Shown here in pieces: positions 44,288-61,929 of a stretch of 64,000 nt of DNA. The stretch is from assembly GCF_021654455.1 (NCBI RefSeq), contig NZ_AP024276.1:1674001-1738000 (forward strand), read 5' to 3'. How positions within the stretch are numbered: the first letter of the stretch is position 1; every line of letters begins with the position of its first letter. Under the pieces are notes generated by a model that was given only the letters and a program-made list of their open reading frames with translations, did no database searches and was not told where the DNA came from. Position numbers and translations under genes: made by a program. The DNA comes from Streptococcus parasuis. GTDB lineage: Bacteria > Bacillota > Bacilli > Lactobacillales > Streptococcaceae.

Positions 44288-46774
44288 TTAACTTATGGCT
44301 TTTGGAAATATGAATAACGACTTGTTTTCCAGAAGCAGTCCCAATAATTCCTGAATCTTACTAGACGAAAACGAATGCAATTGTAAATGGACTGTTGAAC
44401 GTGTGTTCCGCAAATCCTCTCTAAATTTCTCCTCGTAGTCCCTACCACTGAATAATACTTGGGTTTGCTCCTTTTCACCAACTTGGTATGCCATTTTTCG
44501 ATAGGCTATCTGACGTTTCTGGTACATTTTTTCAAGATAAGGAACGTGTATATCTAGATAATCAACTATTCTCACCTCAGTTTTGCCTTGATAGGGACGG
44601 TGAAGTCGCCCTGCATACTGTATGAGGTTATTTTTCCAAGACAAAGGAGCTGCCAAAATTAGTGTATCCAACTTTGGCATATCGAAGCCCTCTCCAATAA
44701 ATTTTCCTGTTGAAATGAGGACAAATGGACTATTCTCATCTAGCTCACTGATTCTTTTCAGGAGTTCTTTCGTATCTCTTCTTTTACTCGCTCCACTCAG
44801 ACAAAAAATATTGGTCATTTCTTTTTCAATAAGTAGCTTTTCCAATAGTTCTATATGTTCTCGTCGATTGACTAAGACAAGGATATTTCGCTTTTCTTGA
44901 TATAGTTTGAAAATATCTTGCACAATCAAAGTATTGCGATGTAAATCTTTGGCAAGCCAATCATTAAGGGATGCAAAGTTCGTACTATTCGACTGTTCCA
45001 AGTCCAATTTCCCAAAAGATGTTAGACGAAGTAGTAACTTCTTTTTAAAATCGTATTGACCTGATTGAGCAGTATGTAAAATTGGACCAATACGTTGAAA
45101 GACAATCGGTTGGTGCCCGTTTTTGCGTTCTGGCGTTGCTGTTAAGCCATATAGATATTGACCAGCAAATTGAGCAACTACTTTTTCAAACTGCAAGGCT
45201 GTCACATGATGGCATTCATCTACAATCATCATATCGTAGTCCGACAAAAAGGCGGAAATAGCGTCCAATTGGAAGAGGGATTGAATCATAACCACATCCA
45301 CCAATTTACTCCTCCATTTTTTAGAAGCCCCATATTGCCCAATATGCCCTATTACTTTTACACGCCCTGAAGGAGTATAGCGAACTGCATCTTCCTCTTC
45401 AATCTCTAAAAATTCACCCAACCTTTCCAACCACTGCTCCAACAGTTGACGATTGTGAACTAAGATAATCGTTCTACATTTCCTCTTGGCAATCAAGGCT
45501 GCCCCTAAAACTGTCTTCCCGAAACCTGTTTCAGCACATAGCAAGCCATTCTCACTAGCTAATAAATCTGCCAAAGCAAGTTCCTGCTCAAAACGCAACC
45601 TCCCTTTGAAAGAAATCTGAATCGGAGACAAACTGTTGCGATTGTCCCTAATAGTTACCGTTTCAAAGATTTCCTGTAGCTTAGCAAGTATTCCTCTTGG
45701 AAGATGCAAGGCTTCGTTTGTTTCTTCAAATAAATAGATGCGTTTTGGAGTCTGATAGGTTGGTTGTCTGGTCGCTTGTTTTAGATAAAATTCAGGGTTA
45801 AGAAAAGATGCCAGCTTTCTCAATAAGTAATTTGTTTTTGAAGAAATAGCCCTCTTCTCAACTTGAATAACGTTTGATAAGCTACAATCTAATACTGTAT
45901 CATCTACAGAATCCGAAAACTCCTGTCCTAAGAAATCTAGAATTTTCTTCTGTCCAATCTTTTGAACCTGTTGAAGATAGGTCCATTGTTCAGAAAAGGG
46001 CTGAAAATGTTTATCAACAAAAACGGTTCTTCCCTTCTTGAAAGCTTCCCCTTGTAAGGGCAGTGCGATAAGATTGCCAAATCCTCCCTTGGGCAGAATA
46101 TCTTGATTTGGAAACATACGGTCAAATGAAGAAAAGCGAATATCTTTTGACTCCTGCATAGCCAATTCCAGCAATCGTTTCCCAACATTTCTTGCTTGCT
46201 GACAAGCAATTTCTTCCTCGAAGAAAAACCAGAGGTGGGCACCGTTGCCCGAACGAGAGATTTCAATATGCCCCTCAAAACCATATTGTTCTGCTGTATC
46301 TCTTAGAATGGAGACCTCTTCTCTCCAATTATTTTTATCAAAATCAATTGCCAAAAAGGAACACGTGTCTGATAGACTCATTGGAAAAATTCCAATACTG
46401 ATTTCGCCACGTAGGTGAGTCAACAATACCTGTTTGGTCAAGGGTTGACAAGTTCTCTTTTCAACAGGAAGTTTTTTCCAACCATAGTTGTAAGAAGGAA
46501 AATAGTTGATTTTTCCATTTTCATCAATATAAGATTTCGCATAAACATCTACACGTCCCTTAAATAGGCTGAACAGAATGGAGAGTTTTTCATCGCTACT
46601 TAGTTGATGTTTTTGTTCTTCAAAGTAATCATACAAATGCTTGTCACTAATCAGAAATTGCTGTTTGTCATCTTGAAATTGCATTAAATTCAGAATCTTA
46701 TCGGTAGTATAATAGGGAAAACGAGCAAGATGCTTTGCAACCTTACCCGTTGATTTTTCATAATAATAAGACAT
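44288..46774 (-). CDS. TOTE conflict-system primase (AEP) - SF2 helicase, truncated by frameshift
   Basis: An 828-residue protein. The N-terminal third is an archaeo-eukaryotic primase-like domain of the TOTE type: LAIDFDKNN (about 141) carries the metal aspartates and SRSGNGAHLWFFF (about 175) the nucleotide-binding motif. The middle is an SF2 helicase with Walker A AETGFGKTVLG (about 415), DECHH (about 518), GLTATPERK and QYAGRLHRPYQG. The C terminus starts a PLD-like nuclease (QLHSFSSSKIQELLG) but ends early, and the rest lies in another frame downstream. GGAGGA supports the ATG at 46774. TOTE systems are predicted nucleic-acid-targeting conflict systems; this copy may keep only primase-helicase activity. 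Confidence 0.85.
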   Translation of the reverse strand: MSYYYEKSTGKVAKHLARFPYYTTDKILNLMQFQDDKQQFLISDKHLYDYFEEQKHQLSSDEKLSILFSLFKGRVDVYAKSYIDENGKINYFPSYNYGWKKLPVEKRTCQPLTKQVLLTHLRGEISIGIFPMSLSDTCSFLAIDFDKNNWREEVSILRDTAEQYGFEGHIEISRSGNGAHLWFFFEEEIACQQARNVGKRLLELAMQESKDIRFSSFDRMFPNQDILPKGGFGNLIALPLQGEAFKKGRTVFVDKHFQPFSEQWTYLQQVQKIGQKKILDFLGQEFSDSVDDTVLDCSLSNVIQVEKRAISSKTNYLLRKLASFLNPEFYLKQATRQPTYQTPKRIYLFEETNEALHLPRGILAKLQEIFETVTIRDNRNSLSPIQISFKGRLRFEQELALADLLASENGLLCAETGFGKTVLGAALIAKRKCRTIILVHNRQLLEQWLERLGEFLEIEEEDAVRYTPSGRVKVIGHIGQYGASKKWRSKLVDVVMIQSLFQLDAISAFLSDYDMMIVDECHHVTALQFEKVVAQFAGQYLYGLTATPERKNGHQPIVFQRIGPILHTAQSGQYDFKKKLLLRLTSFGKLDLEQSNSTNFASLNDWLAKDLHRNTLIVQDIFKLYQEKRNILVLVNRREHIELLEKLLIEKEMTNIFCLSGASKRRDTKELLKRISELDENSPFVLISTGKFIGEGFDMPKLDTLILAAPLSWKNNLIQYAGRLHRPYQGKTEVRIVDYLDIHVPYLEKMYQKRQIAYRKMAYQVGEKEQTQVLFSGRDYEEKFREDLRNTRSTVHLQLHSFSSSKIQELLGLLLENKSLFIFPKAIS

Positions 46775-46843
46775 GTGAGTTCCTCCAAATTGCCTATCGA
46801 GACTATCAATCAAGATGATATTTTTACATCGTATACGCTAATA

Positions 46844-48418
46844 CTATTTCCTAGTTACCCAACCAATCGCATCTGCTGGTGGATTCTCAGTATCAATCCA
46901 GATAAACTCAATCCCAATTTCGCCATTTTTGAATTTGGATAATCGAATACCATTTATTTCGAGAGACTCCAATTTTTTCCCAGTCAGTACTTCACGCTCA
47001 GCCAATTGGAATACACCTCTTAACAACCACTCTCCAAGAATATCTTGTTTGTCAACCGACTGAATAGCCTTACCTGATTCTTGGTTGATATAGGCTTGGA
47101 TGGCATCTCCTGATGATAGAAAACGAAGTGTGAATGTTCGTTCTTCTTTTGTCAAGGCGAGCTTCTTCCCCGTTTCATCAAATGTTCCTACATTGTGACC
47201 GAAAAAGTCTGGTCGAGCATCATGAAACTTTTTAGAATCCGGAAGTGGAATATAAACTTCACTAACAGGACGGTAAACCAATTTCTCCAGTTTTTCAGAT
47301 AACTTTTCAACTCCCGATTCATTAACAAAATTCATCAAGTCCGAGCGAATTTTCTTCATCTCAGCTTTCTCTTCTTTAGTGGACCACTTTTTCAATAAAA
47401 TTTCTTCCAATGAATAAGTCACAAATGCCAGTTCTTCCGAAGTGAGCTGACCCGAAAATTCCTCTTGGATTCTCTGAATGCGTGATAGTCTATCTTTTTT
47501 AGCTAACTTAGCTCCACCATTAAAGGCGTTAAAGCCTGAATTTTCTTCAACATGGCCATGCTTGTCTGTAATGACCCATGAAACTGTATCAATAACTTGG
47601 TCTTCTTTCTCGCCTGTTGATAAAGTGTGTAGATTTTCAAAAATATAAAATGGATCTTCCACATAGTCCACATCCCAGGTATCTACCACTATTTCTTTGT
47701 TATGGAAGGTCATGTGAAGTTGGCTATCTGCTGCAGTATATTTGTAATCATGTTGACCATCTGTAAAGACAAAATTTGTAGGAGTTTTTAGACTGGTCGC
47801 TCCCTTAATCTGCAAATTTTCCACATCAATCGGAAGGTAACTGGTTTCCCCTACAAATATTTGTGGCTTGGTTCCTTTTGCTGTTGGCATTAAGACATGG
47901 TAAACAGACTCAACCGTTGAATCCGAAGCAAAACCACGAATTTGTGCTTTTGAAGATTCTATTCGTTGATTTCGAAGTCTTGAAATTTCCACGGCTAAAC
48001 TTTCATAAAGTGGATAATTATTTTTATCAGCAGTTGCTTTATCTAGCGCAATTGATGCATTAAACTTAATCTTTTGTAGCGTTTCTGTCCATCCTTGAGA
48101 ATCTTTTTTAAATTGGGCGACTTTTTGATCCCCTGATTGAATACCAAATGACTTTATTCCAACTAAATACTTATGGTGATTGTCAACTACAACAGATGCA
48201 TCAAAAGAAGTATTTGCAATATCCTCACCAACTGCATGAAATGCCCGTTGAAAAACCGTTTCTTGAAACTTTGAATTAATAATTGGTGCGACATATTGAA
48301 ATGTATCATCTTCCTCAGCTGTTTCTGATTTTTGAGAAAATGCCTCACTAAGACTTGCAAAATTCGTAATCAATGTTCGATACTTTTCTTTATGCTCTGA
48401 TTTTAACTTTTCCCACAT
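46844..48418 (-). CDS. Putative type II restriction endonuclease paired with the C5 methyltransferase
   Basis: A 524-residue protein I cannot assign to a REBASE family. Near residue 70-85 is a strand pair SFDASVVVDNHHKYLVGIKSF that could hold a PD-(D/E)XK-type aspartate and lysine. The C-terminal third (FLSSGDAIQAYINQESGKAI, GEWLLRGVFQLAEREVLTGK, EIGIEFIWID) is rich in aromatic and polar motifs resembling the target-binding half of known enzymes. It lies directly downstream of a C5 methyltransferase, the usual partner, but has its own -10 (48441-48446), which would let methylation precede cutting. Specificity unknown. Confidence 0.65.
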   Translation of the reverse strand: MWEKLKSEHKEKYRTLITNFASLSEAFSQKSETAEEDDTFQYVAPIINSKFQETVFQRAFHAVGEDIANTSFDASVVVDNHHKYLVGIKSFGIQSGDQKVAQFKKDSQGWTETLQKIKFNASIALDKATADKNNYPLYESLAVEISRLRNQRIESSKAQIRGFASDSTVESVYHVLMPTAKGTKPQIFVGETSYLPIDVENLQIKGATSLKTPTNFVFTDGQHDYKYTAADSQLHMTFHNKEIVVDTWDVDYVEDPFYIFENLHTLSTGEKEDQVIDTVSWVITDKHGHVEENSGFNAFNGGAKLAKKDRLSRIQRIQEEFSGQLTSEELAFVTYSLEEILLKKWSTKEEKAEMKKIRSDLMNFVNESGVEKLSEKLEKLVYRPVSEVYIPLPDSKKFHDARPDFFGHNVGTFDETGKKLALTKEERTFTLRFLSSGDAIQAYINQESGKAIQSVDKQDILGEWLLRGVFQLAEREVLTGKKLESLEINGIRLSKFKNGEIGIEFIWIDTENPPADAIGWVTRK

Positions 48419-48440
48419 AGACTGTACCTCTTTGTTCTTA

Positions 48441-48477
48441 ATTATAGTATAGCAAAAGAAGACTAGTTTCTACTAGC
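48441..48477 (-). promoter_or_regulatory. Hairpin and separate promoter between C5 methyltransferase and endonuclease
   Basis: On the minus strand GGCTAGT and ACTAGTC form a 7-bp stem with a 4-nt loop followed by TTCTTTT, then a perfect TATAAT at 48441-48446, 23 nt from the endonuclease ATG. The hairpin can attenuate read-through and the -10 can start a new transcript. Inference only. Confidence 0.5.
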
Positions 48478-48484
48478 CCTCTAT

Positions 48485-49717
48485 TTAATTATTCGTAACG
48501 GCAATGCTATAAAATTCCAAGTGACCGCCTTTTTTGACCAAGCGTAAATAGTCTTCATCTGACAAAATTCCTAAACCGTCATTGTACCCATCTAACTTAG
48601 CTATTGCTTCGTCATAGTTCTCAACAAAATCTTTCACATAGGACTGTCCTTCAAACTGACCATTCATCTTGGTATAGATAATCGCAACATTTCCTGTTCG
48701 CTCCAACTGTGATATACCTTTGGTAGTTTTCATTGCTTCAGCAATTTTATCTGCAATCCGCTTGATAACTGGTACAACAACGCTGTTTCCAGCCTGTTTA
48801 TAGAGCTGGCCGTTGGATACACCTTCTGGAATTTTAAAGGTCTTGGGATAACCTTGAACGTTAAAGGTTTCTTTTGGTGTCAGCTTGCGAATTTCCCCAG
48901 TATCTGTCAAAATGAGGGGAACATTGTGTCCACCTGTTCCCATATTTGCTGTTAAAGTTGGTACAACACCATTTTTGTTTTCCCTGACATATTGGCGTCG
49001 CCATTGGTAAACCGTATCTTGACTGGTCACAGCGTGCTTCAACTCTTCAAAGAAGGGCTGTTTCCCTTGACGATAATAGTAATTTTCCTCTGGTTTTGCC
49101 CCAAAATCAATAACATCTTGAAGCCCAGTGGTCAACTTAATCTCCTCTGGAAACTCGAATTTTTCGTAGGCTTCCTTATTATCAAAACCAACAATATAGA
49201 TCCTTTCGCGATTTTGCGGAATATTGCCATAATCCTTGCCGTTCAACACTTTCCACTTGATGAAATAATTGTTCTCGGTCAAGGCTTCACGGATAACCTT
49301 GAAGGTATTCCCGTGGTCATGTGAAACCATGTTCTTCACATTCTCGACAAAAATCGCCTTGGGTTTCTTGGCTTCAATCATACGAAGCAACTCAAAGAAA
49401 AGGTCGCCTCGGTCATCTTCAAACCCCTTGCGGTACCCTGCAATACTAAAGGCCTGACAAGGAAAACCTCCAACAATCACATCGACTGTTTCCGAAGGAA
49501 TTTCCTCTGGCAATACTGCGTGAATATCACGCCCATCCAGATAAGTATCTGGGTAATTCAACTGATAAGTCTGTCTGGCATACTTATCAAATTCGTTGGC
49601 ATACACCACTCTGAACTCGTTGGTCTGCTCAAAGCCCAACTCAATTCCACCAACACCAGAAAAGAATGCTGCAATAGCAAACTTCTCCTGCTGGCGTGAA
49701 CTTACAGAATTTGTCAT
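48485..49717 (-). CDS. DNA (cytosine-5) methyltransferase
   Basis: A 410-residue C5 methyltransferase with motifs in order: I AAFFSGVGGIELGFEQ, IV GGFPCQAFS (catalytic Cys about 86), VI ENVKNMVSH, VIII QNRERIYIVGFD, a short recognition region (about 210-270), IX LTPKETFNVQGYP, and X QAGNSVVVPVI. An extra C-terminal segment of about 65 residues follows. It is 15 nt downstream of the PD-(D/E)XK gene and upstream of a putative endonuclease, so it may serve the type II pair, the ATPase operon, or both. Target sequence unknown. Confidence 0.95.
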   Translation of the reverse strand: MTNSVSSRQQEKFAIAAFFSGVGGIELGFEQTNEFRVVYANEFDKYARQTYQLNYPDTYLDGRDIHAVLPEEIPSETVDVIVGGFPCQAFSIAGYRKGFEDDRGDLFFELLRMIEAKKPKAIFVENVKNMVSHDHGNTFKVIREALTENNYFIKWKVLNGKDYGNIPQNRERIYIVGFDNKEAYEKFEFPEEIKLTTGLQDVIDFGAKPEENYYYRQGKQPFFEELKHAVTSQDTVYQWRRQYVRENKNGVVPTLTANMGTGGHNVPLILTDTGEIRKLTPKETFNVQGYPKTFKIPEGVSNGQLYKQAGNSVVVPVIKRIADKIAEAMKTTKGISQLERTGNVAIIYTKMNGQFEGQSYVKDFVENYDEAIAKLDGYNDGLGILSDEDYLRLVKKGGHLEFYSIAVTNN

Positions 49718-49732
49718 GTAAGCACCTGCTTT

Positions 49733-50818
49733 CTAATTAGATCCATTAACAATTAGATAGTCAAACCTTTCTAAAAGATTATCTAAAAATGTCCCCCGAT
49801 AAGAGTTTCTGAAGCCATTACAAAAATTAGGAAATTTCTTATAAATCTGCTTGCTATCCTTATATTCTCCTTTACTAACTTTTTCGTAATATTCATTACA
49901 TTTCTCTTTAATTTTTTCTGGATTATCATGAGCATAAAACATGTAAAGATACGTTTGATAAATTTCTTGCTCGTCAGCTTCAAGATGATCGCAATATTTA
50001 TTTAATTGTAAATATCCGTCTCCAAATCGATAATGTGAATACCCATCTTTAGAATCAATATCAAAATATTTTCTTTGAATAATAAACTTTACCTCTATGA
50101 TGGTCATCTGGTTATCTTTATTTCTAATTGCCAAATCCACAGACTCTTCATCATCCTTAGAGTAAGTATTCTCTTCCTTTGTGACAACACCTTTCATATG
50201 TTCTCTAAGAAATTCCCATAAATCATTTCGAAAATCCTGCTCAGATAATGAACTATTAATTTTATCAGTACCTTCTTTCAAAAAAACATCCGGTTTCTCA
50301 ATTTTTCGTAAGGCTTGATATTTTTGGAACACCATCGGTAAGTTACATAGATCATATTTATTTAAATTTTCTTCATGGGATTTCTTTTTTTCTTCAAAGA
50401 AATATTGAAAATTTGGATCAGTATTCCCATTTATAAAATATTCTACTCCATTATTAGTTTGACAATAAACTCCTGCACAACCTTCATTACTCTTTTCTAG
50501 AGCTTGGTTCTTAAGATGAGAACTGTTACTATCAACAATCAACGGAGTTTTTTCGTTAGTTATCTTTTGACTCTTAAGAGAAAAGATATTTAAAGAATCA
50601 TTGGAAAAATTTGAAGATATTTCTTTATGTATTTGATTTTTTAATGATAGTAAGCCGTCTAATTTATCAATTACTAATATAAAAGACTTTTTCTGTAGTT
50701 GCTCATCAAAATATAGACTCGTAAGAATCGTAAACTCAGCTTCATTTGGTAAAATAGTTGACTTGCTATTTAAAAAACTATTATTGATGTCAATCAACAG
50801 TTTCACCTCGCTTATCAT
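49733..50818 (-). CDS. PD-(D/E)XK nuclease-like effector of the Rad50-type operon
   Basis: A 361-residue protein of two parts. Residues 1-185 match nothing I know. Residues 190-300 are a PD-(D/E)XK nuclease: a glutamate helix (SEQDFRNDLWEFLREHM), aspartate in ESVDLAI (about 226), the ExK strand MTIIEVKF (about 240) and a later Gln in GYLQLNKYCDH, the full catalytic set. It overlaps the middle gene by 29 nt. The ATG at 50818 has no ribosome site; a TTG at 50797 preceded by GAGGTG is a plausible alternative. Likely the DNA-cutting arm of the system. Confidence 0.75.
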   Translation of the reverse strand: MISEVKLLIDINNSFLNSKSTILPNEAEFTILTSLYFDEQLQKKSFILVIDKLDGLLSLKNQIHKEISSNFSNDSLNIFSLKSQKITNEKTPLIVDSNSSHLKNQALEKSNEGCAGVYCQTNNGVEYFINGNTDPNFQYFFEEKKKSHEENLNKYDLCNLPMVFQKYQALRKIEKPDVFLKEGTDKINSSLSEQDFRNDLWEFLREHMKGVVTKEENTYSKDDEESVDLAIRNKDNQMTIIEVKFIIQRKYFDIDSKDGYSHYRFGDGYLQLNKYCDHLEADEQEIYQTYLYMFYAHDNPEKIKEKCNEYYEKVSKGEYKDSKQIYKKFPNFCNGFRNSYRGTFLDNLLERFDYLIVNGSN

Positions 50819-51380
50819 TTTGGATATGCTGTATAATGAAATTTAACCAATGACTTAAAACATCATACTTTTCAATAGTCTGTTCTGTTATACTATCATA
50901 AAATGTATTTAATAGTTCTGATAATTCGCTATTGGAGACCGAAACTTCTATGTTTCTATTCTTAGCACTTTTAACACTTGGTTCTTCAAAAAGTAATGAA
51001 AAAACAGTATCATCGTCATACGAAGTCAATAAATTTACAAAGGATTGAATCTCTTTTAATTTTTCAGCAGATAAACCATCTGGCGACAATGAGTTTCCCC
51101 AGTTCACTAATTTAGCATTTGGGCATACAGTAGTAGTTTCTCTTGATAAAAAATCTGTAGCTACTAATCGATCGATTTCCTCTGAAAAGCCTGAAATTTT
51201 AATCCCAAAGTGTCTATCTGTATATACAGTAACTTCACTTTTCACCTCTTCCTGTAAAAATTGCCCTGTTATATAGTATAAATACAAATATCTTTGTAAG
51301 GTATTTATATTTATTTTCTTTCTAATTTGGCTAATAGAAAAAACGAATAATAAAATTGTTTCACGAAATGAATCACTCAC
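50790..51380 (-). CDS. Small middle component (LmuC / ABC-3C-like) of the Rad50-type operon
   Basis: A 196-residue protein of mostly helical composition, starting SDSFRETILLFVFSISQIRK. It has no catalytic motif that I can see. Position (between a Rad50-like ATPase and a nuclease) and size match the middle component of ABC-three-component systems, called LmuC in Lamassu, but the sequence itself is not recognised. The start is GTG at 51380, overlapping the ATPase stop as TAGTG, with AAGGAG 7 nt upstream. Confidence 0.65.
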   Translation of the reverse strand: MSDSFRETILLFVFSISQIRKKININTLQRYLYLYYITGQFLQEEVKSEVTVYTDRHFGIKISGFSEEIDRLVATDFLSRETTTVCPNAKLVNWGNSLSPDGLSAEKLKEIQSFVNLLTSYDDDTVFSLLFEEPSVKSAKNRNIEVSVSNSELSELLNTFYDSITEQTIEKYDVLSHWLNFIIQHIQNDKRGETVD

Positions 51381-53257
51381 TATACTGTCTCCTTAATTCT
51401 ATATCTTGAAAGTTTCGTTAAATCAATTATATTAACAACATCTCCATACTCATCCATCAGTCCATCAATAAGATAACTTGATCGCTCATTTGAAGTGATA
51501 AAAAGGGAATTACCTTTATTTATGTAATATTTAAGAGTGGCAACAGCATTTTTCTCATGATATAAATCAAGAGAACTATCGGGAGTCTCACATAAAAATA
51601 AAGAATTTTTATGGAAATGACATAATATAGAAAAACGATAAGATAAATCAACAAATATCCGCTGTGATTCCGATAGAGTCATCTTATCATCTCTTAGGAC
51701 ATCATCCAAAATAAGTTGGATCAATCCCTCTTCATAATCATCCATAGATTTTTTGGGTAGCCTCAATTCTATCTCACGATTAGAACCAAAAAAACCTTTT
51801 GCGAATTTTATAAACTGATCAGAAAAATCAACAAATTTCTCAGACAGAGACTGCTCAATAATTATTTTCAACTCCCGTTCTTTTTGTTGAGCACTCTTCA
51901 ACTCCATTAGCGCGTCTTCTTTTTGGTTTTCTAAAATAGCTAATCTATTTTTGTCTTCCCCCAAGTAATCTTTAGAGACTAAATTTATTTTATTAAATTT
52001 TTGTTGTGTTTCAATCAACTGGCTTTTTAAAATTCTTAGTCTCGTTTCGTCTGTCTCAATTTGGTTATTTAATTTTTCTATCTCTAATTTTATTTGCTTT
52101 ATGCTATCAGAAATTTTCTTCCGTTCAATATCTAAATCAGATAAATTTCCCTTTTCCAAGGATTTTAATTTCTCATCACACATAATACAATTTTGACTGT
52201 CCAACTCAAACTCATGTTTACTATTACAAAAAGGACATCTGTTGGATTTCATTGCATTAATATACTTACTGTATATTTTTTTATAATCAGGCTCAAATAA
52301 AATAGAATAGTATTTTTCTTCTACTCTCTTCTGCTCATCATAAAATTTCTCATACTTTTTTTTCAAACCAATCAGATTCGTCTGATTTTTGCTAATGCTT
52401 ATATTAATACTTCTCTGCTCGCTATCAAGTCGACTTAGTTTGTTTTCCAATTCATCCTTCGTTTCTTGAATGTTCTCGATTTCTGAATTACCTTGCTGCT
52501 CAGCATTTAAAAATTTATTAGCATAATTCAAAGCCTCACTACGTTGTTTATATTTACTTTGTCTGTACTGAGTTTCTGAAACCGCTTCTCTATATCGTAT
52601 ATAATCATCTGAACTCAATATATACGAACCGATTATTTTTTGTTGCTTATCCGAATTCCAAAACGAATAATGTCTATCTTCACTGAAGAAAATGGTGTCC
52701 GTAAACATATCAACTAACGTATTAAAACCATCAGGAACATTAGTTGCTTCTGCTATTTTTTGATTATAAACACCTATCAAATAGCTTTCAATCTCACTTA
52801 GTTCCTCATTATCTTCTTCAGAGTATTTCTTTTCATAACGTTGATAAGTAATTGTTTTATAGTCTTTTTTATCGTATACTTCATTATCTACCGAAAATTC
52901 TAGTAACTCAGTATTATAAAGGCTACGCTTAACTTTAAACAATTTTCCAGCAATATCAAACTCAACTATGACTTCTGCATCTTCTTGCTTTTGAATCATT
53001 CTATCTCTAAAAAAATTCTCCTTGAGCATTGGACGATTCGCTTTTTTACGATTTTTATAATTTTTAAATTTAATACCATAAGTATAGGGACCAATTATGG
53101 AATATAAAATTATATGTAACAATGTACTTTTTCCTGTCCCGTTAGTTCCTCTAATTAAATTTAATGTTTCTGAAAATTCGAGTTCTAACGGACAAGTATA
53201 CAAGTCATAATTATTAATTATCATTTTTTTTAGAACGGGTAAATTAAATGTTTCCAT
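51380..53257 (-). CDS. Rad50/SMC-like ABC ATPase with zinc hook (LmuB-like)
   Basis: A 625-residue ABC ATPase of the Rad50 type. Walker A is GTNGTGKST (37-45). A coiled coil (about 230-330 and 370-470) flanks a zinc-hook-like CPFC...CIMC pair (about 340-360). The C-terminal lobe has a signature-like TLSESQRIFVDLSYRF and Walker B SLFLCETPDSSLD (about 550). This is the organisation of ATPases in Lamassu and other defence operons. It lies between a DNA methyltransferase and a small gene with 1-nt stop/start overlap; AGGAGGT precedes its ATG. The locus is visibly AT-rich compared with core genes. Confidence 0.85.
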   Translation of the reverse strand: METFNLPVLKKMIINNYDLYTCPLELEFSETLNLIRGTNGTGKSTLLHIILYSIIGPYTYGIKFKNYKNRKKANRPMLKENFFRDRMIQKQEDAEVIVEFDIAGKLFKVKRSLYNTELLEFSVDNEVYDKKDYKTITYQRYEKKYSEEDNEELSEIESYLIGVYNQKIAEATNVPDGFNTLVDMFTDTIFFSEDRHYSFWNSDKQQKIIGSYILSSDDYIRYREAVSETQYRQSKYKQRSEALNYANKFLNAEQQGNSEIENIQETKDELENKLSRLDSEQRSINISISKNQTNLIGLKKKYEKFYDEQKRVEEKYYSILFEPDYKKIYSKYINAMKSNRCPFCNSKHEFELDSQNCIMCDEKLKSLEKGNLSDLDIERKKISDSIKQIKLEIEKLNNQIETDETRLRILKSQLIETQQKFNKINLVSKDYLGEDKNRLAILENQKEDALMELKSAQQKERELKIIIEQSLSEKFVDFSDQFIKFAKGFFGSNREIELRLPKKSMDDYEEGLIQLILDDVLRDDKMTLSESQRIFVDLSYRFSILCHFHKNSLFLCETPDSSLDLYHEKNAVATLKYYINKGNSLFITSNERSSYLIDGLMDEYGDVVNIIDLTKLSRYRIKETV

Positions 53258-53270
53258 CTGTAAGTACCTC

Positions 53271-54551
53271 CTATTTTTCTAGAACTAAAACTCCTTCAAG
53301 TAATTTCCCGATTTTTTCTTTTTGTTGTGGACTAGGGTTGATATACCTCGCCTTTCGGATTTCAATAACTTTAAATCCTATGTTTTCAGCTATTTCAGCA
53401 CAAATTTCCAATGTATTGATTAAAACTCCAAAATAGGCAGAATTAGAAACATTAAAATAAACCCTACGACTATTTTTCAATTTTTGATACATGCCTTCAA
53501 AAATAATCTGCATATCCTCAAAGTAAGCCAGAATCATATTTAAAATTTCTTCGTTCCAAGATGAAATAGTTTTACTCGCAACTTCAAGTTTATCAAGGGT
53601 GATTTTTAAAAGAGGACTATTTACATTGTCTAGATTACTTATCTTTAATTGTACATGCGAACGAATCGTCTGAGCCCTAAGCTCCTTAATATCATTATAG
53701 TTTTTAAAAAAATCAAGGGCTTTTAACTCCAGCATATAAGAATCTGTATAATCTCTTGAGTTCAAATATGGGGGAGAGGTTATAATAAGATCTACTGAAT
53801 TATTCGCAACTTTTTCAAAAATAAGTTTTCTAGAATCGCCCCTGTATAATAGTGGATTGTTTGAGAATGTATTACTTGGTTGCTCTTTTATATCGTCAAC
53901 GATAATCTCTTTGATAAATCTAAAAAAACTATTGATAACATCTTCTTGAGAATATCTCTTCTCTTGCCAATTTTTTTTATAAGATAGACATTTCCCATTT
54001 CTGTATAAATTACTATAATCCAGTAAGATTTTGGATAGACAAATTATATATAGTTCTTTATAAAGCTTTGTATTCAATGAGTCTATCGCCAATTTCAATT
54101 TTTCAAGGGCAATAAAAACCTCTTTATCAAGATTCCATTTTTTCTTATCTTGACTTTCAACTAAAGTAGGAAATTCACTTTTTAAATCAATTTCACTATC
54201 ATCTAAATTTGCTAAAAAATCTGTCATTACAGAGACATGATTTCTAATTGTTCTAATTTTATATTGATTCACTTTCAATTTAGCTTTAGATAGAACAAAC
54301 ATAAACGGATTGACTTCAAAAGATATACAACTAACGCTTCTTCTAGATAATTCTAGAGCAGTGGTTCCACTACCTGAAAAAGGCTCTAGGCATAACTTGA
54401 CATCGTATCCTTGTTCATCGACTACAGAATTGATAAATTCTTTTGAGTATCCCTCAACAAAAGGATACCATCGATGTACACTAACTTCTTTGTTTTTATT
54501 AAATTGCATTATTCTATCATATTGCTCTAAATAGTCTGTATATTTATACAT
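53271..54551 (-). CDS. Amino-methyltransferase (N4-cytosine/N6-adenine DNA methylase), TSPPY type
   Basis: A 426-residue beta-class arrangement: the SAM loop LEPFSGSGTTALEL comes first (about 54-66) and the catalytic ITSPPYLNSRDYTD later (about 256-268), with the recognition region between. The C terminus (GVLINTLEICAEIAENIGFK) completes the fold. It is the first gene of the ATPase-middle-nuclease operon, 13 nt before the ATPase, and starts behind AAAAGGAT. Its likely role is to mark self DNA. Target unknown. Confidence 0.87.
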   Translation of the reverse strand: MYKYTDYLEQYDRIMQFNKNKEVSVHRWYPFVEGYSKEFINSVVDEQGYDVKLCLEPFSGSGTTALELSRRSVSCISFEVNPFMFVLSKAKLKVNQYKIRTIRNHVSVMTDFLANLDDSEIDLKSEFPTLVESQDKKKWNLDKEVFIALEKLKLAIDSLNTKLYKELYIICLSKILLDYSNLYRNGKCLSYKKNWQEKRYSQEDVINSFFRFIKEIIVDDIKEQPSNTFSNNPLLYRGDSRKLIFEKVANNSVDLIITSPPYLNSRDYTDSYMLELKALDFFKNYNDIKELRAQTIRSHVQLKISNLDNVNSPLLKITLDKLEVASKTISSWNEEILNMILAYFEDMQIIFEGMYQKLKNSRRVYFNVSNSAYFGVLINTLEICAEIAENIGFKVIEIRKARYINPSPQQKEKIGKLLEGVLVLEK

Positions 54552-54695: not shown

Positions 54696-57347
54696 TTACC
54701 CCACCAACTTTTTCATCTCTTCAATCCGTCCTACTGTCGCATCATATTTTGCTTGGTAGTCGGCTTGTTTTTCTTTTTCTTTTTCAACGACTTCTGGTTT
54801 GGCGTTGGCGATGAAGCGTTCATTGCTGAGTTTTTTGCCGACCAAGTCTAGTTCTTTTTGCCATTTGGCAAGCTCTTTGTCCAGACGAGCCAACTCTTCT
54901 TCTACGTTGAGGAGGTCGGCGAGTGGCAAGAAGATTTCAGCACCAGTGATAACGGCTGACATGGCTAATTCTGGCGCAGCAATGCTTGAGCTGATTTCCA
55001 GATGCTCTGGATTTGTAAAGCGTCGGATGTAGTTTTCATTTGCCTTGAAGAAGGTTTCAAGCTCGCTATCTGCCGTCTTAATCAAGATAGTAATCGGTTT
55101 AGATGGCGCAACATTCACTTCTGCTCTGCTATTTCGCACCGAACGAATCAAGTCCTTAAGGCTCTCCACTCCTTTGTGGGCTTCCGTATTTTCAAAGGCT
55201 GGGTTGACCACAGGGTAAGCTGCCACCACGATAGAGCCCTCTGCGTACTGGGCGAAGATCTCTTCCGTCACAAACGGCATGATAGGGTGGAGGAGGCGAA
55301 GGATTTGGTCCAGCGTGTAGAGAAGGACAGAGCGAGTCATGACTTTCTCAGCCTCGTTATCGCTGTAGAGCACTTCCTTGGTCAGCTCCACATACCAGTT
55401 GGCGAACTCTTCCCAGATGAAGTTATAAAGAATATGACCAGCCACACCAAACTCGAACTTGTCGAAGTTTTCAGTGACCTTAGCAATGGTTTCGTTGAGG
55501 TTGTGGAGAATCCAGCGGTCCGTCACGTTACCAGCCTCACCAGCTGCGACTTTGACAACATTTTCACGCGCTGCATCCAAGGTCAAGCCTTCATTGTTCA
55601 TGAGGATATAGCGGGAAATGTTCCAAATCTTGTTGATGAAGTTCCAAGAAGCATCCATCTTCTCATAAGAGAAACGAACATCTTGACCAGGGGCAGAGCC
55701 GTTTGACAGGAACCAACGCAAAGCGTCCGCACCGTATTTCTCGATGACATCCATTGGGTCGATCCCGTTTCCAAGCGACTTGGACATCTTGCGACCTTCT
55801 TCGTCACGGATCAAACCGTGGATCAGCACATTCTTGAATGGCTGACGGCCTGTGAACTCAAGCGATTGGAAAATCATCCGTGACACCCAGAAGAAGATGA
55901 TGTCGTAGCCCGTTACCAGGGTTGAGGTTGGGAAGTAACGCTGGAAGTCAGCCGCGTTTTCGTCAGGCCAGCCCATAGTTGAGAATGGCCAAAGGGCAGA
56001 GCTGAACCAGGTGTCTAGGACATCCTCATCCTGTACCCAACCGTCACCTGTTGGAGCCTCTTCTCCGACGTACATTTCGCCAGATTCGTTATACCATGCT
56101 GGAATCTGATGCCCCCACCAAAGCTGACGCGAGATTACCCAGTCGTGTACATTTTCCATCCATTGCAGGAAGGTATCGTTGAAACGTGGTGGGTAAAATT
56201 CTACCTTGTCAGCTGTGTCTTGGTTGGCAATGGCATTCTTAGCTAGTTGGTCCATCTTAACAAACCACTGGGTTGACAAGCGTGGCTCAACTACCACACC
56301 TGTACGCTCCGAGTGACCAACGGAATGCACACGGTTTTCGATTTCAACAAGGGCACCCAGTTCTTGTAACTTAGCAACCGTTGCCTTACGAGCTTCAAAG
56401 CGGTCCATACCTGCAAATTCACCTGCCAACTCGTTCATCGTACCGTCGTCGTTCATGACATTGACTTGTGGCAAATTGTGGCGTTGACCTACGAGGAAGT
56501 CATTTGGATCGTGAGCAGGCGTGATTTTCACAACCCCTGTACCAAATTCAGGATCGGCGTGTTCATCCGCAACGATTGGGATTGGCTTGTTTACGATTGG
56601 CAGGATAACGTTTTTACCAATCAAGTCCTTGTAACGTGGATCTTCTGGATTAACCGCCACCGCAACGTCACCGAACATGGTTTCAGGACGGGTGGTCGCA
56701 ACTTGAAGGGCACGAGAACCATCTTCCAACATGTAATTCATGTGGTAGAAGGCACCTTCGACGTCCTTGTGAATAACCTCGATGTCAGAAAGGGCTGTGC
56801 GAGCCGCTGGATCCCAGTTGATGATAAATTCGCCACGGTAGATCCAGCCTTTTTTGTAGAGTTCTACAAAGACCTTGCGAACAGCTTTTGACAAACCTTC
56901 ATCAAGTGTGAAACGTTCACGTGAATAATCCACAGATAAACCTAGTTTACCCCATTGCTCCTTGATGGTTGTAGCATATTCATCTTTCCATTCCCAGACT
57001 TTGTCGAGGAATTTTTCACGACCAAGATCATAGCGTGTGATACCTTGCTCCCGCAAGCGTTCCTCAACTTTAGCCTGTGTGGCAATCCCCGCATGGTCCA
57101 TACCTGGAAGCCAGAGGGTATCAAAGCCCTGCATGCGTTTCTGGCGGATAATGATGTCTTGAAGGGTGGTATCCCAAGCGTGTCCCAAGTGCAATTTACC
57201 TGTTACATTTGGTGGCGGAATGACGATAGAATAAGGCTTCGCCTCCGCATCGCCTGACGGCTTAAAGACATCTTGGTCCAACCAAGTTTGGTAACGACCA
57301 GCCTCAACCTCGGCTGGATTGTATTTTGGTGATAATTCTTTTGACAT
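54696..57347 (-). CDS. valS: Valyl-tRNA synthetase
   Basis: An 883-residue class I synthetase. HIGH is HLGHAWD near residue 53, KMSKSLGNG is present, the editing domain includes [15 protein letters not shown], and a C-terminal coiled coil (about 815-880) clamps the tRNA. Its ATG overlaps the S-subunit stop as TAATG, with AGGAG upstream inside that gene. A valine-type T-box lies 5.8 kb upstream in the same direction, ahead of two small genes and the BcgI-like system; I infer that the restriction genes were inserted between leader and valS. Confidence 0.97.
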
Positions 57348-58951
57348 TAATTTTTCTCCTGATGTAAATAATTCAAAATCTTAAAAATTTGTTCTAGTTC
57401 TTGCTTTTGCATGTACGATTTCATATAGTCATAATCTGGTAGTCCAGCCTCAGTAACTGGTAACATAATCTTCTGGCGCTTCATCCGTTCACCATTAAAT
57501 TTATAACCATAGGCATATTTGATTTTTTGAGATAAAATCATCTGTTTTAAGAAAAGATAGGTATATTTATTGCCAATTGTCCCATCTTTCCAATTTAAGC
57601 GTTTGACATCGTCTGAAAAAATAGCTTGGTAAGGGTGATAGAAATTTTCGACAACACTGCCATTATAATTAACACCGAGTACATTTTCATCAAGACTTTT
57701 ATTCGTATTAGATACAAATGCCGTCACTCCGTTGTCGCTATCACTGGCACCAATGAAAGGGCGTTCCCCAGCCTCTTGATTACCTTTGGTCAGACGAACA
57801 CCAGATTTAACGTCACAAATATATTCAATCCAGAAATCTTTCCAAGAAATTTCACAAACTTTTTCTTCAAGTATCGTCTTCATTTTAATATATATATATA
57901 TATATTCAAGCACTTCTTGAACTTTATCAAGTTCTAATTTTTTCACAAAGTCCGACATATATTGGAAATCAGGATTGCCGTTTTTGTCAGCGGGTAGTGT
58001 TAGAGTCTCTCGTTTCAATCTTTCTTGATTTCGTTTATATCCAAAATTATATTTTCCCCTAACTTGATCAGCTACTGTGGTTATAAATTTAGCATTATAT
58101 TCATTCAGATTTTCATTATATCCAACTGTTATATCCTGTGATGCAACGAAGTCTTCTTTTTTATAGACGCTATATCCCATTGAACCTTCTCCGTTCCGAA
58201 TAAAGGCAATAGCATTTCCGGAGTATATCAGGCTTTCTTTTTGTTCAACAAAATCCAAAACGCCATTATTACGATTGGTTGCTCCTACATAACTGATTCC
58301 GTCGGATATCCCTTTTTCTAAATGATTAAGACCTTTACTACCTTTTGTAATTAAATCAAATACTTCTCCTAAGCAAAACGTTTTCCACTCAACCTTATCC
58401 AAGCCCACCACTTCGCCAGCTAAATCAACCAGTTTACGCTCATAATAGTCAATGACTTGCTGAGCTTGTTGCTGCTGCTCCTGTTTGATATAGTCTTCCA
58501 TAAATTGCCAGTTAGGTTGACCATGAGAATCAATAGGAAGCATGAGTTTATTTTTTATTACTCTATTCAGTCCAACGGGGTAACCATAACCAAATCCTTT
58601 TGAAGTCAAATAATTATCAATAATTGAAATTAAAAACTTGCTAATATCTTTATTCAAGAAGTCATTTCGTAAAACTAAAATATTTTGACTACAAGTAAAG
58701 TCATAAGGTTGATAAAACGATCTCGGCTCTCCAACCATACTTACTGTAATACAATTTTTCTTAACAATTTTATCTTTGGAAACATAATAAAGACCTTGGA
58801 ATCCATTATTAACTGAACTTCTTCCAATGAATGGCACTTCTCCTTCGCTGAGAGCATTTGAGTCAGATGATTTTGCTATAAAGATCTCTGGAAAAATATC
58901 TGGAAATAAAAACTCTTTCCACTCCACATCTGTCAACTTTAACTTACTCAT
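57347..58951 (-). CDS. Specificity (S) subunit with three target-recognition units and an internal (AT)9 repeat
   Basis: A 534-residue S protein of the BcgI-B/HsdS type. Three homologous units each begin with VEWKxF or ISWKDF (residues about 10, 190, 365) and end with the same motif: [54 protein letters not shown]. Known S subunits carry one or two. A dinucleotide run at 57888-57905 encodes YIYIYI at the joint of units two and three; change by one repeat unit would shift the frame and drop unit three. The ATG at 58951 follows AGGTGAG. Confidence 0.87.
57888..57905 (-). repeat. (AT)9 simple sequence repeat inside the S-subunit gene
   Basis: Nine uninterrupted AT units in coding sequence, translated YIYIYI. 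Dinucleotide tracts of this kind are prone to slipped-strand changes; gain or loss of one unit changes frame. An ATG follows at once (MKTILEEK), which could restart unit three as a separate protein. Confidence 0.9.
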
Positions 58952-59954
58952 CTTTCTCACCTGCCATCAGTTTCTGGATTTGCTTATCAAAATCTGACAC
59001 AATTTTCTGGATGCGATTGAATTTTTCATACTCTTGATTAGCTTTTTCATCTGCCTGTTTTTTAGAAATGGTACCTTTGCCTTCTAGAATTTGGTATTCA
59101 TTGAAAGATAGGAAGCGGTCAATACTTTCTGCCAAGGCCTGCATGGTAAAAGTATTTCGGCGTTCAACCAAGCCTTCAATATAGTCAAAATAAGCGGTTA
59201 CGGTCCGTTCAAGCTGACGAATTTCTGCTTCTTGTAGATAATTTTTAGCCACAATCACATCCGATTTCAGCACGCGACCATCTGGAGCATTCTTCCAAGT
59301 TGTCAGCCCCATCTGCTCCTTATCAGCATCTGCCTTATGATAAATAATTTCCGCAGCGGTATTGCCCGTAATAGCAAAATGAAATTTATTTTGCACCATA
59401 GCATAGAAATTCTTAGTGATTTCTGAATTTCTGTCATAATCAATCGCACATTCTGCAAAAATATCAGTCACCTGCTGATAAATGCGGCGCTCACTAGCAC
59501 GGATAGATCGGATACGCTCTAAGAGTTCACGGAAATAGTCCTGTCCAAAGACTGTCTGCCCTTGTTTCAAGCGTTCATCATCAAGCACAAAACCTTTGAT
59601 AATAAACTCTTTCAAAGTATCAGTCGCCCAAATCCGAAATTGTGTTGCCTTTGATGAGTTGACACGATAGCCAACTGAGATAATAGCGTCAAGACTGTAG
59701 TATTCTAGTTCACGTCGAACTGCTCTATTACCTTCTTGTTGAACTATTCGGAATTTCCGAACAGTTGCTAGTTTGACCAGTTCTCCATCATTATAAATGT
59801 TTTTTAAATGTTCACTTACTGTTGATTTTGCAACACCAAACAACTCTGCAATCCCTTTTTGCGTCAGCCAGAGATTCTCATCCTGTAAAAGAATATCCAG
59901 ATGTACCTCACCATTAGGTGTTGTGTAAAGGATAAAATTAGAAATTTCATTCAT
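58944..59954 (-). CDS. RhuM-family protein
   Basis: A 336-residue RhuM protein. The N-terminal helix-turn-helix-like part (LTQKGIAELFGVAKSTVSEH) is followed by the conserved YYSLDAIISVGYRVNS and ATQFRIWATDTLKEFIIKGF. RhuM was named as a Salmonella virulence gene but is frequent inside restriction loci, where its role is unknown. It overlaps the nuclease-methylase stop and the S-subunit start, so it is integral to this operon. The ATG at 59954 follows AAGGTGAT. Confidence 0.92.
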   Translation of the reverse strand: MNEISNFILYTTPNGEVHLDILLQDENLWLTQKGIAELFGVAKSTVSEHLKNIYNDGELVKLATVRKFRIVQQEGNRAVRRELEYYSLDAIISVGYRVNSSKATQFRIWATDTLKEFIIKGFVLDDERLKQGQTVFGQDYFRELLERIRSIRASERRIYQQVTDIFAECAIDYDRNSEITKNFYAMVQNKFHFAITGNTAAEIIYHKADADKEQMGLTTWKNAPDGRVLKSDVIVAKNYLQEAEIRQLERTVTAYFDYIEGLVERRNTFTMQALAESIDRFLSFNEYQILEGKGTISKKQADEKANQEYEKFNRIQKIVSDFDKQIQKLMAGEKDE

Positions 59955-61929
59955 ACTTATCACCTTCTTCCGCTACCATCTGAAATTCATCAGTGTCACT
60001 CATTTCTTGATAATTCTCTTTATCTTCTATCCCAAAAAGATATCCGCGTCCATGTGTAATCATATTTACTTCAAAAGTGAGGTAATCTGCAATGGTTTTT
60101 TGGAAATCTTCTTCAGTTGGGATCTCATCATTGAAATAGTAGAAAGAATGGAGCCACTCATCATCGGCTTCAATTGTCGTACTAACACAGAATTTCGTTT
60201 CCGCATCTGTACGATTAAACCAAACATCCAGCAAATGCTGTTTTTTATCTTTAGCAGTAGCCGTTTCAACGAGACCAATATGCTTAGAAACCTCAAACCC
60301 ATCATTTTCAAAATTGATAAACTTACATTCCTTTTCTGGACGATGGGGAATGCCAGCTGTAAACACTGCAATACAAGGGTTTGTCCCCACTCCGTAAAAG
60401 GTATTTTTATTGAGGGTAATAACACCTTCCAAAGTGTGATATTTTAAGATATTTTGTTTCGCTTCTTTTTCAAACTTTGTTTTTCCTGTAAAGGTTGACT
60501 GAGGTACAATAACAGCAGCCTTAGCCCCTTCAACTAAGGAATTTAACAAGTGTTCTGTAAAGTTAATTTCATATAATTCAGTATTTGTTTTTGAGCCCAT
60601 TGAATAGGGTGGGTTCATCATACCAACATTACATTGCTTTAATTGTAGTTTACTAGGATTTTGGCGCAGAAAGTCTTGATTTTCAAGATTACTCTTCCCA
60701 TCACCTCGTAGGATCATATTGGTGGTTGCAATGGTAAACATATAAGATTGCTCTTCAATACCAAAAAGCTGGTGCTTACGAATCTGCTCACGTTGGTAAT
60801 CACTCTCTGCTTTTGTCAGCATATCATGCATAGCAGCAATCAAGAAACCAGCCGTTCCGCAAGTTGGGTCAAAGACCTTATCCGTTGGCTTCAAATCAAC
60901 TAAATCACAAAACAGCTCAGTAATATGCTTTGGTGTCAAAACAATCCCTAAGTTCTGTCCATCTCCGCCAGAATAAGACATAAATTCGCCATAAAAGCGA
61001 CCAAGATAATCTTCCGCAGAGCTATTGTATCTTAGGCTTTGATATATACTTTTATAAAGAAATTCTGTAAAGTGCTTAATTGGTGTTTTCCCTAACGTGC
61101 TATTGTTCTCATTAATTTTAACATCATCTCTGATGATCGCAAACTGGCTAAGTAGTTTGTCTTTTTTCACCTCAGGCGAAACATTAGCACGCTGAAGATT
61201 AGCTTTAATAGCAGCATAAATCTTTGAACCATCCGTTTTTACAGTATCACCTGTTAAACTTTCCAGTGAAAAATTCCCGTGTTCTGTCTCTCTCAAAGCT
61301 AAGAGAATTCCTGAAACAATTAACGGTTTGTTCTTCTCTTCAATATTACCATAATTTCTAAGGTCATTATGCAAAGTCGCCGCATCTTTTAAAATTTCAG
61401 CAGTTTCTTTTTCAAAATTGGTTTTTTCTTGCAGAATTTCTTTAACATAATACTCATCAATATTATCAACTGAAAATGAGATTAAAGTTTCAATATCAGC
61501 TAATTCAAAGTACTCCCCGCGTTCATTTACAAAAACTGGTGTAATACGATGCTTTTTTTCATTACCACTAATTCCTAGTGCGATAATTTTTTTATAACTA
61601 ACTTGACCTGCCAAGTGCTTAGCATAAAAGACAGCACCATTTACTGCATAGTCTGTATTTGATTTGACATCATCTGCAATTAGGTCATTATCGGTATAGT
61701 TTATGTGTTTTGATAATTCTGGCTTGTCCTCAATAATTATCAAGAAATCTTTAACAACTCCTACATATTCTGGAAAGCCTGGTTTACCAGTTCCTTTTTT
61801 AGAAGCCGTTTTTAGGGAATCGTCTAATTCCTTGATATTACTTCCTTGAGCATCAAATTTATCCCGGATACCAGCTTCTTTTAAAAGTTCATGTACCCAT
61901 AGATCAGTATTTACTTCTTTTTTTGCCAT
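59947..61929 (-). CDS. BcgI-like restriction-modification subunit: N-terminal nuclease fused to N6-adenine methyltransferase
   Basis: A 660-residue fused enzyme. The N-terminal 160 residues hold a PD-(D/E)XK-like strand DFLIIIEDK (D61, E67, K69) and resemble nuclease domains of type I/IIB enzymes. A helical linker leads to an HsdM-type domain with SAM motif DPTCGTAGFL (about 352) and catalytic NPPY (about 437). Nuclease plus methylase in one chain with a separate S subunit matches BcgI-type IIB systems, and explains the absence of hsdR. Annotation as plain HsdM would miss the nuclease part. Confidence 0.82.
   Translation of the reverse strand: MAKKEVNTDLWVHELLKEAGIRDKFDAQGSNIKELDDSLKTASKKGTGKPGFPEYVGVVKDFLIIIEDKPELSKHINYTDNDLIADDVKSNTDYAVNGAVFYAKHLAGQVSYKKIIALGISGNEKKHRITPVFVNERGEYFELADIETLISFSVDNIDEYYVKEILQEKTNFEKETAEILKDAATLHNDLRNYGNIEEKNKPLIVSGILLALRETEHGNFSLESLTGDTVKTDGSKIYAAIKANLQRANVSPEVKKDKLLSQFAIIRDDVKINENNSTLGKTPIKHFTEFLYKSIYQSLRYNSSAEDYLGRFYGEFMSYSGGDGQNLGIVLTPKHITELFCDLVDLKPTDKVFDPTCGTAGFLIAAMHDMLTKAESDYQREQIRKHQLFGIEEQSYMFTIATTNMILRGDGKSNLENQDFLRQNPSKLQLKQCNVGMMNPPYSMGSKTNTELYEINFTEHLLNSLVEGAKAAVIVPQSTFTGKTKFEKEAKQNILKYHTLEGVITLNKNTFYGVGTNPCIAVFTAGIPHRPEKECKFINFENDGFEVSKHIGLVETATAKDKKQHLLDVWFNRTDAETKFCVSTTIEADDEWLHSFYYFNDEIPTEEDFQKTIADYLTFEVNMITHGRGYLFGIEDKENYQEMSDTDEFQMVAEEGDKYE

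Follow-up and report, generated by a model that had tools for sequence, protein, structure and literature searches.

The question raised by this locus is whether four adjoining genes of Streptococcus parasuis, encoding a methyltransferase, an SMC-like ATPase, a small protein and a nuclease, form a defence system of their own and, if so, what kind of system this is. The window, meaning the whole stretch of DNA analysed, comprises 64,000 nucleotides (contig NZ_AP024276.1, positions 1,674,001 to 1,738,000), and the four-gene module lies in it behind valS, with valS upstream. The four open reading frames were found at the predicted coordinates and strand (Table 1), and the 13-nt gap, the 1-nt overlap and the 29-nt overlap between successive genes were all confirmed. 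The GC content of the four genes was 28.5–29.8%; that of the neighbours was 48.5% (valS), 43.8% (typA), 41.6% (a C5 methyltransferase gene that starts 15 nt beyond the four-gene set), 37.1% (the endonuclease gene following it) and 38.2% (a primase-helicase gene). The module is one compositional unit, which ends before the C5 gene.

Table 1. Features of the locus and its surroundings, in window coordinates.
Feature	Position	Strand	Matches, residues or remarks
DNA amino-methyltransferase (predicted), 426 aa	53271..54551	-	Pfam N6_N4_Mtase, PADLOC MTase_II
SMC/Rad50-like ABC ATPase, 625 aa	51380..53257	-	Pfam AAA_23, PADLOC LmuB, alignment A7
Small middle protein, 196 aa, GTG start	50790..51380	-	homologue at the same position in the other 16 full modules
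PD-(D/E)XK nuclease, 361 aa	49733..50818	-	E193-D228-E242xK244-Q271
C5 methyltransferase and large endonuclease	46844-49717		NgoFVII-like C-terminus of the endonuclease (20.0 bits; Pfam cut-off 23.8)
TOTE primase-helicase	44288-46813		
660-aa gene, presumably RhuM-like gene, specificity subunit	57347-61929		other side of valS

With the window ATPase as sole query, only the protein itself was recovered at 1e-10 from 295 genomes of its order, and a single plasmid record, from Burkholderia stagnalis, was obtained. Profiles matched 2 of 398 genomes of the window's phylum (its own genome included) and 3 of 398 genomes of its class (its own and one already known among them), and also found Diaphorobacter caeni, in whose phylum 5 of 398 genomes were matched, Diaphorobacter itself included. 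A single-sequence scan of IMG/VR and a search of plasmids with the nuclease yielded nothing of use, and the ATPase had no match at 0.001 in phage records. At least 17 ATPase loci were obtained from IMG/VR; among the matches listed, 5 were strong (>200 bits) and 12 weak (<36 bits). The weak ones (L029 and L031-L041) were put aside as other SMC-like proteins, and the other three profiles were unmatched there. The methyltransferase gave 13 IMG/VR loci, eight of which carried the module (four on contigs already found).

The four genes had been put forward as an operon, and when their order was sought in other genomes it was found at 16 further distinct loci, in two phyla and on IMG/VR contigs. Methyltransferase, small protein and nuclease adjoined the ATPase at all 13 loci with strong ATPase matches (L002, L009, L010, L014, L021-L028 and L030), the methyltransferase of L025 being broken off by the contig end. 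The window and the 16 others make 17 distinct full modules; L025, with scores and spacing equal to those of L046, was not counted. Four of the 17 were found through the methyltransferase itself, and the count of 13/13 refers to loci found through the ATPase. Methyltransferase and nuclease were paired at every one of the 17 loci, and the order ATPase, small protein, nuclease was invariant (17/17). The position of the methyltransferase varied among four arrangements and always adjoined this core: in front on the same strand in three loci (the window, L046 and L021), behind on the same strand in six (L010, L014, L044, L030, L027 and L026), convergent in six (L042, L045, L028, L022, L023 and L024) and divergent in two (L009 and L002, where it also stands in front of a second trio). 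The four genes are a conserved unit.

Two loci were of unusual build. In L002 (1683-11806) one methyltransferase lies between two complete ATPase-small protein-nuclease trios, together with an HTH-like gene. A partial module in Azospirillum (L003, 9197-14718) contains a methyltransferase, a KAP-like NTPase (by eye), an ATPase in two frames and a small protein; its third protein differs and was unmatched by the nuclease profile.

The genes of the module did not share one history. Over the 17 loci, distance correlations were 0.81–0.89 among ATPase, small protein and nuclease and 0.38–0.47 between methyltransferase and core, each value being reached in 0–2 of 2000 permutations; L002 was represented by its plus-strand trio only. 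Forcing the methyltransferase tree on the core genes cost 292–805 log units and forcing the core trees on the methyltransferase 666–692, as against 15–47 when the tree of one core gene was forced on another. Core against core, the AU test rejected at 5% (p 0.0005–0.019) and the SH test did not (0.21–0.47). Because its tree conflicts strongly with those of the core, the methyltransferase is taken to have been exchanged between modules, yet it is present in every full module; the trio is inherited together, and the methyltransferase is exchanged but retained. A reciprocal test used a sample of 398 genomes drawn likewise from the phylum of Diaphorobacter; at 1e-30 the methyltransferase profile matched 11 of them. 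The five highest scores (590–629 bits; the other six were at 126–166) belonged to the five ATPase genomes, all of them rows of that profile, four of which had scored 443–471 bits before entering it.

The window methyltransferase has an FSGSGTT motif, with TSPPY about 200 residues further on, and is predicted to be a DNA amino-methyltransferase of the N4-cytosine or N6-adenine type. It matched Pfam N6_N4_Mtase (1.7e-9), PADLOC MTase_II (6.6e-48) and type II methyltransferase models, and is 37–45% identical to the methyltransferases of six modules (L010, L014, L042, L044, L045 and L030) and 27–31% identical to those of the other ten. The GxGT and SPPY motifs were conserved in 18/18 methyltransferases covering them. 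R-M controllers often stand divergently beside the methyltransferase; here a divergent HTH-like gene flanks it in 4 of the 17 full modules (L002, L021, L023 and L024). The HTH-like profile was built from three of these four, and L021 was found by profile (30.6 bits); a match in L003 was doubtful (13 bits). One of the four HTH-like genes matched HTH_37, below the Pfam cut-off. Five of the 13 IMG/VR methyltransferase loci carried the methyltransferase family without the core, one of them (L049) ending 345 nt past the gene at the contig end. In L050 (7938-11741) a related methyltransferase is convergent with an 849-residue protein in place of the ATPase trio, among neighbours that resemble phage tail and lysis genes (by eye).

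The E-D-ExK-Q set predicted for the nuclease was confirmed and was conserved in 19/19 sequences, a count that includes L025 and both L002 copies; together with the methyltransferase motifs, this means that both enzymes keep their catalytic motifs. The PD-(D/E)XK residues are confined to the C-terminal half, and the N-terminal ~180 residues were poorly conserved according to the conservation profile. Residues 295–297 of the window nuclease read Y295-x-H297 in place of the D-x-R pair found in 18/18 others, and the L024 nuclease has Phe at the Tyr neighbouring this pair. PDDEXK_9 was matched by 5 of the 10 nuclease relatives scanned and was without a match in the window nuclease; none of the 10 matched any PADLOC model at 0.1, LmuA included. 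The first alignments of small proteins and nucleases included the Azospirillum proteins; the third of these lacks the nuclease residues and was omitted from later nuclease alignments.

For the window small protein, no Pfam, PADLOC or NCBIfam family came above threshold. It and the nuclease had no PADLOC and no NCBIfam model at 0.1, their only Pfam models were far under the cut-offs, and the best E-values of the PDB profile searches were 0.21 (nuclease) and 0.33 (small protein). Eleven small proteins were also compared at sequence-profile level, that of L014 being assigned by position and profile. LmuC was absent among their PADLOC matches (one stray WH_III-A at 0.036), and they matched no middle-component family of Pfam (strays RhgB_N at 0.0075 and Cullin_Nedd8 at 0.043), which includes at least one family named MC2 (PF20288), taken by us to be an ABC-3C middle component. 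As far as profiles can tell, neither the small protein nor the nuclease belongs to a described family.

The window ATPase contains Walker A, CxxC...CxxC, an SESQ signature and a Walker-B-like ETPDSSLD. The original prediction, of Walker A, Walker B and a CxxC hook, was borne out as to the presence of these motifs and needs amending in two respects: a single chain carries two CxxC pairs, separated by 12 residues, and the position of the Walker B catalytic glutamate is taken by Thr or Ala. Twenty-one ATPase ORFs were compared for residue conservation. Thr or Ala stood at that position in 20/20 ORFs covering the site (Thr in the window), an alignment with Rad50 placed it at the catalytic glutamate, and the cysteines were conserved in 20/20 ORFs covering them; the ATPase of L030 deviates in signature and D-loop. 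Since the ATPase and nuclease motif residues are conserved across relatives, the motif set is not due to chance. Judged from these alignments, the ATPase keeps its nucleotide-binding motifs without the Walker B catalytic glutamate. The Rad50 hook carries a single CxxC per chain. The available text of PMC10586767 likewise gives the Rad50 hook a single CxxC, and it describes a Glu-to-Gln change at the equivalent Walker B position of LmuB, which is thought to be a poor hydrolyser.

Of the PADLOC models, LmuB also scored best on the window ATPase (2.5e-19), and its model PDLC03863 matched all ten ATPases of alignment A7; this match spans residues 24–464 of the window ATPase and is therefore distant. 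The PbeC and DndD models weakly matched up to 8/10 and 6/10 ATPases, respectively. Among solved structures, the ATPase family profile was nearest to SMC and Rad50.

On balance the module is probably a mobile four-gene R-M system, built on a Lamassu-type SMC-like core and equipped with an exchangeable methyltransferase. An R-M reading is suggested by the methyltransferase adjoining at all loci found by strong ATPase matches, by the coincidence of the ATPase and best methyltransferase matches in the same 5 of 398 genomes, by a methyltransferase orientation that is free beside a fixed core order, by the conserved nuclease and methyltransferase motifs, by core trees that nearly agree and a methyltransferase tree that conflicts with them, and by the controller-like HTH genes. 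The PDLC03863 matches, and the lack of the catalytic glutamate in LmuB as well (PMC10586767, available text), point to a Lamassu-type core. Self-recognition would take place via methylation, the methyltransferase marking the host genome. A dimer of the ATPase, with the small protein as adaptor, may close on DNA as an ATP clamp, slow or poor in hydrolysis, and thereby keep the nuclease off, and unmarked incoming DNA, or exposed ends, would release or activate the nuclease and lead to DNA cutting. Since core and methyltransferase follow different histories, sequence specificity probably resides in the methyltransferase and not in the nuclease. A more far-reaching proposal, which we put forward only tentatively, is that an SMC-like, hydrolysis-poor clamp with its own nuclease may be a universal cutter, for which the exchangeable methyltransferase sets the target specificity and also supplies the self mark; modules would then change specificity by the exchange of one gene. 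Lamassu and the SMC-like systems related to it are believed to respond to the structure of DNA, restriction enzymes to its marks. A system that joined both would open two questions to experiment: by what means an SMC-like clamp distinguishes self DNA from foreign DNA, and for what reason a single gene of the module is swapped when its other three remain a set.

Several observations weigh against an R-M system. That the methyltransferase has been exchanged repeatedly may also reflect a loose coupling, and the family occurs without the core in the five IMG/VR loci mentioned. The window nuclease departs from the D-x-R pair of the others, the core trees formally differ by the AU test, though not by SH, and the five genomes of the reciprocal test were rows of the profile used. 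Lamassu, moreover, is described in the available text of PMC10586767 as killing the cell and not as restricting.

The nearest described systems are Lamassu and the CxC systems with methylases. The systems of the ABC-three-component type are said to originate from Krishnan 2020. No four-gene system like this one was found in the available text of the literature searched; Krishnan 2020 (10.1093/nar/gkaa726) may mention one. With Lamassu, ABC-three-component and DdmABC systems the module shares an SMC-like ATPase of ~650 residues, a small middle protein and a nuclease effector, the plan that the original prediction had named. In support of that prediction, a defence-type module of four genes does recur, with the amino-methyltransferase as a constant member, and LmuB is the closest PADLOC model of the window ATPase. 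These likenesses allow for abortive infection of the Lamassu type, in which an SMC-like sensor, blind to methylation, would recognise structures of invader DNA and let the nuclease cut all DNA and the methyltransferase would only shield the host chromosome from accidental cuts. The shared plan of three parts, in which the small gene takes the middle place, would agree with this, as would the replaced hydrolysis residue (Thr/Ala here, Gln in LmuB) and the presence of PD-(D/E)XK domains among Lamassu effectors in the available text of PMC10586767. We consider it unlikely, given that the small proteins and nucleases were unmatched by any Lmu model and lie outside the described Lmu families, that the nuclease domain is C-terminal here and N-terminal in LmuA, which has a C-terminal docking domain (available text), and that the word methyl is absent from the available text of a Lamassu review, just as that of a second paper names no methyltransferase. 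A constant adjoining methyltransferase and two CxxC pairs further distinguish the module from Lamassu.

In ordinary type II R-M systems, as here, methyltransferase and nuclease genes are adjacent, whatever their orientation, and an HTH-like gene sometimes joins them; the module differs in that its nuclease is accompanied by an SMC-like ATPase and a small protein and that its methyltransferase is swapped separately. R and M genes can adjoin without a shared transcript, as do the methyltransferase and core of the module.

CxC ABC-ATPase systems and PbeABCD combine an ABC ATPase with a cysteine hook, a small protein, a nuclease and sometimes cytosine methylases (PMC10853773, available text). By analogy with proposals for DndD/CxC, ATPase and small protein might scan DNA and direct methylation, leaving the nuclease as a secondary cutter, and the weak PbeC and DndD matches would be in keeping with this. 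Such a role is improbable: the ATPase tracks the nuclease and the small protein and not the methyltransferase, no DndE match was obtained in Pfam or PADLOC for the window proteins or the 11 small proteins, and no HKD nuclease-helicase or phosphorothioation family was matched by the four window proteins (for the methyltransferase, these statements cover the best 25 of 39 PADLOC matches). Membership in CxC/Pbe was rejected, with a PD-(D/E)XK nuclease in place of an HKD nuclease fused to an SF2 helicase, no DndE, and LmuB as the better match of the window ATPase. MADS was rejected likewise: mad2 (3.9e-8) matched the methyltransferase and mad3 (4e-6) and mad8 (0.0047) the ATPase, all weakly and far below other PADLOC models, namely MTase_II and LmuB; small protein and nuclease had no mad match, and the mad set was incomplete, with no other mad model among the matches listed for the four proteins.

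That the R-M module would be mobile is suggested by the variable cargo at the valS site, which includes methyltransferase-like genes, and by transposition and phage-type genes near the module elsewhere. valS was present in 40/40 genomes of the genus searched (its own included). The stretch behind it was examined in 7 of the other 39 and held different cargo in all seven, with a C5-methyltransferase-like gene in three of them; no module gene was recognised in these stretches, two of which (L078 and L084) are cut short by a contig border. Transposition genes lie near the module in L014 (TnsA, TnsC and TnsD), L002 (TniB and TniQ) and L009 (Mu-type transposase), and similarity to these served to look for such genes in 18 loci; the contig of L042 also has a PHROG 824 protein and a helicase of phage type. 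A selfish role, in which the genes serve mobile elements as an addiction or exclusion module, retained by killing the cell upon methyltransferase loss and cutting rivals, would suit these neighbours and the variable valS site and is very improbable as the whole account, being compatible with the main R-M reading and not exclusive of it. Second copies of the valS 3' end were noted several kb behind valS in L079 (9227-9273), L080 (4459-4534) and L081 (7812-8007), and resemble the far end of integrated elements; a search for a duplicated valS end in the window gave chance-level matches only.

The C5 methyltransferase had been counted as part of the system, and this portion of the earlier interpretation did not hold, in contrast to the four-gene defence-type module with its constant methyltransferase. 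It was ruled out as a fifth component by its different GC content, by a homologous pair in Lactobacillus johnsonii and by its absence from the other loci: over 405 residues it shares 66% identity with a L. johnsonii plasmid methyltransferase, which adjoins a PLD-domain endonuclease that in turn shares 26% identity, over 313 residues, with the next gene of the window, and the window C5 and endonuclease proteins had no match at 1e-5 in the other 18 loci. The two are a separate type II R-M pair. The TOTE primase-helicase was also rejected as a component; it occurs near valS in three module-free relatives (L079, L080 and L081), and near other modules it matched only one helicase, a distant one of L010 (23% over 366 residues). 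On the other side of valS, the 660-aa gene has weak similarity to a gene in L082. The gene of the specificity subunit (Specificity_II, 2.7e-87) overlaps valS by one base, its last and the first of valS, and also matches mad5 at 2e-13.
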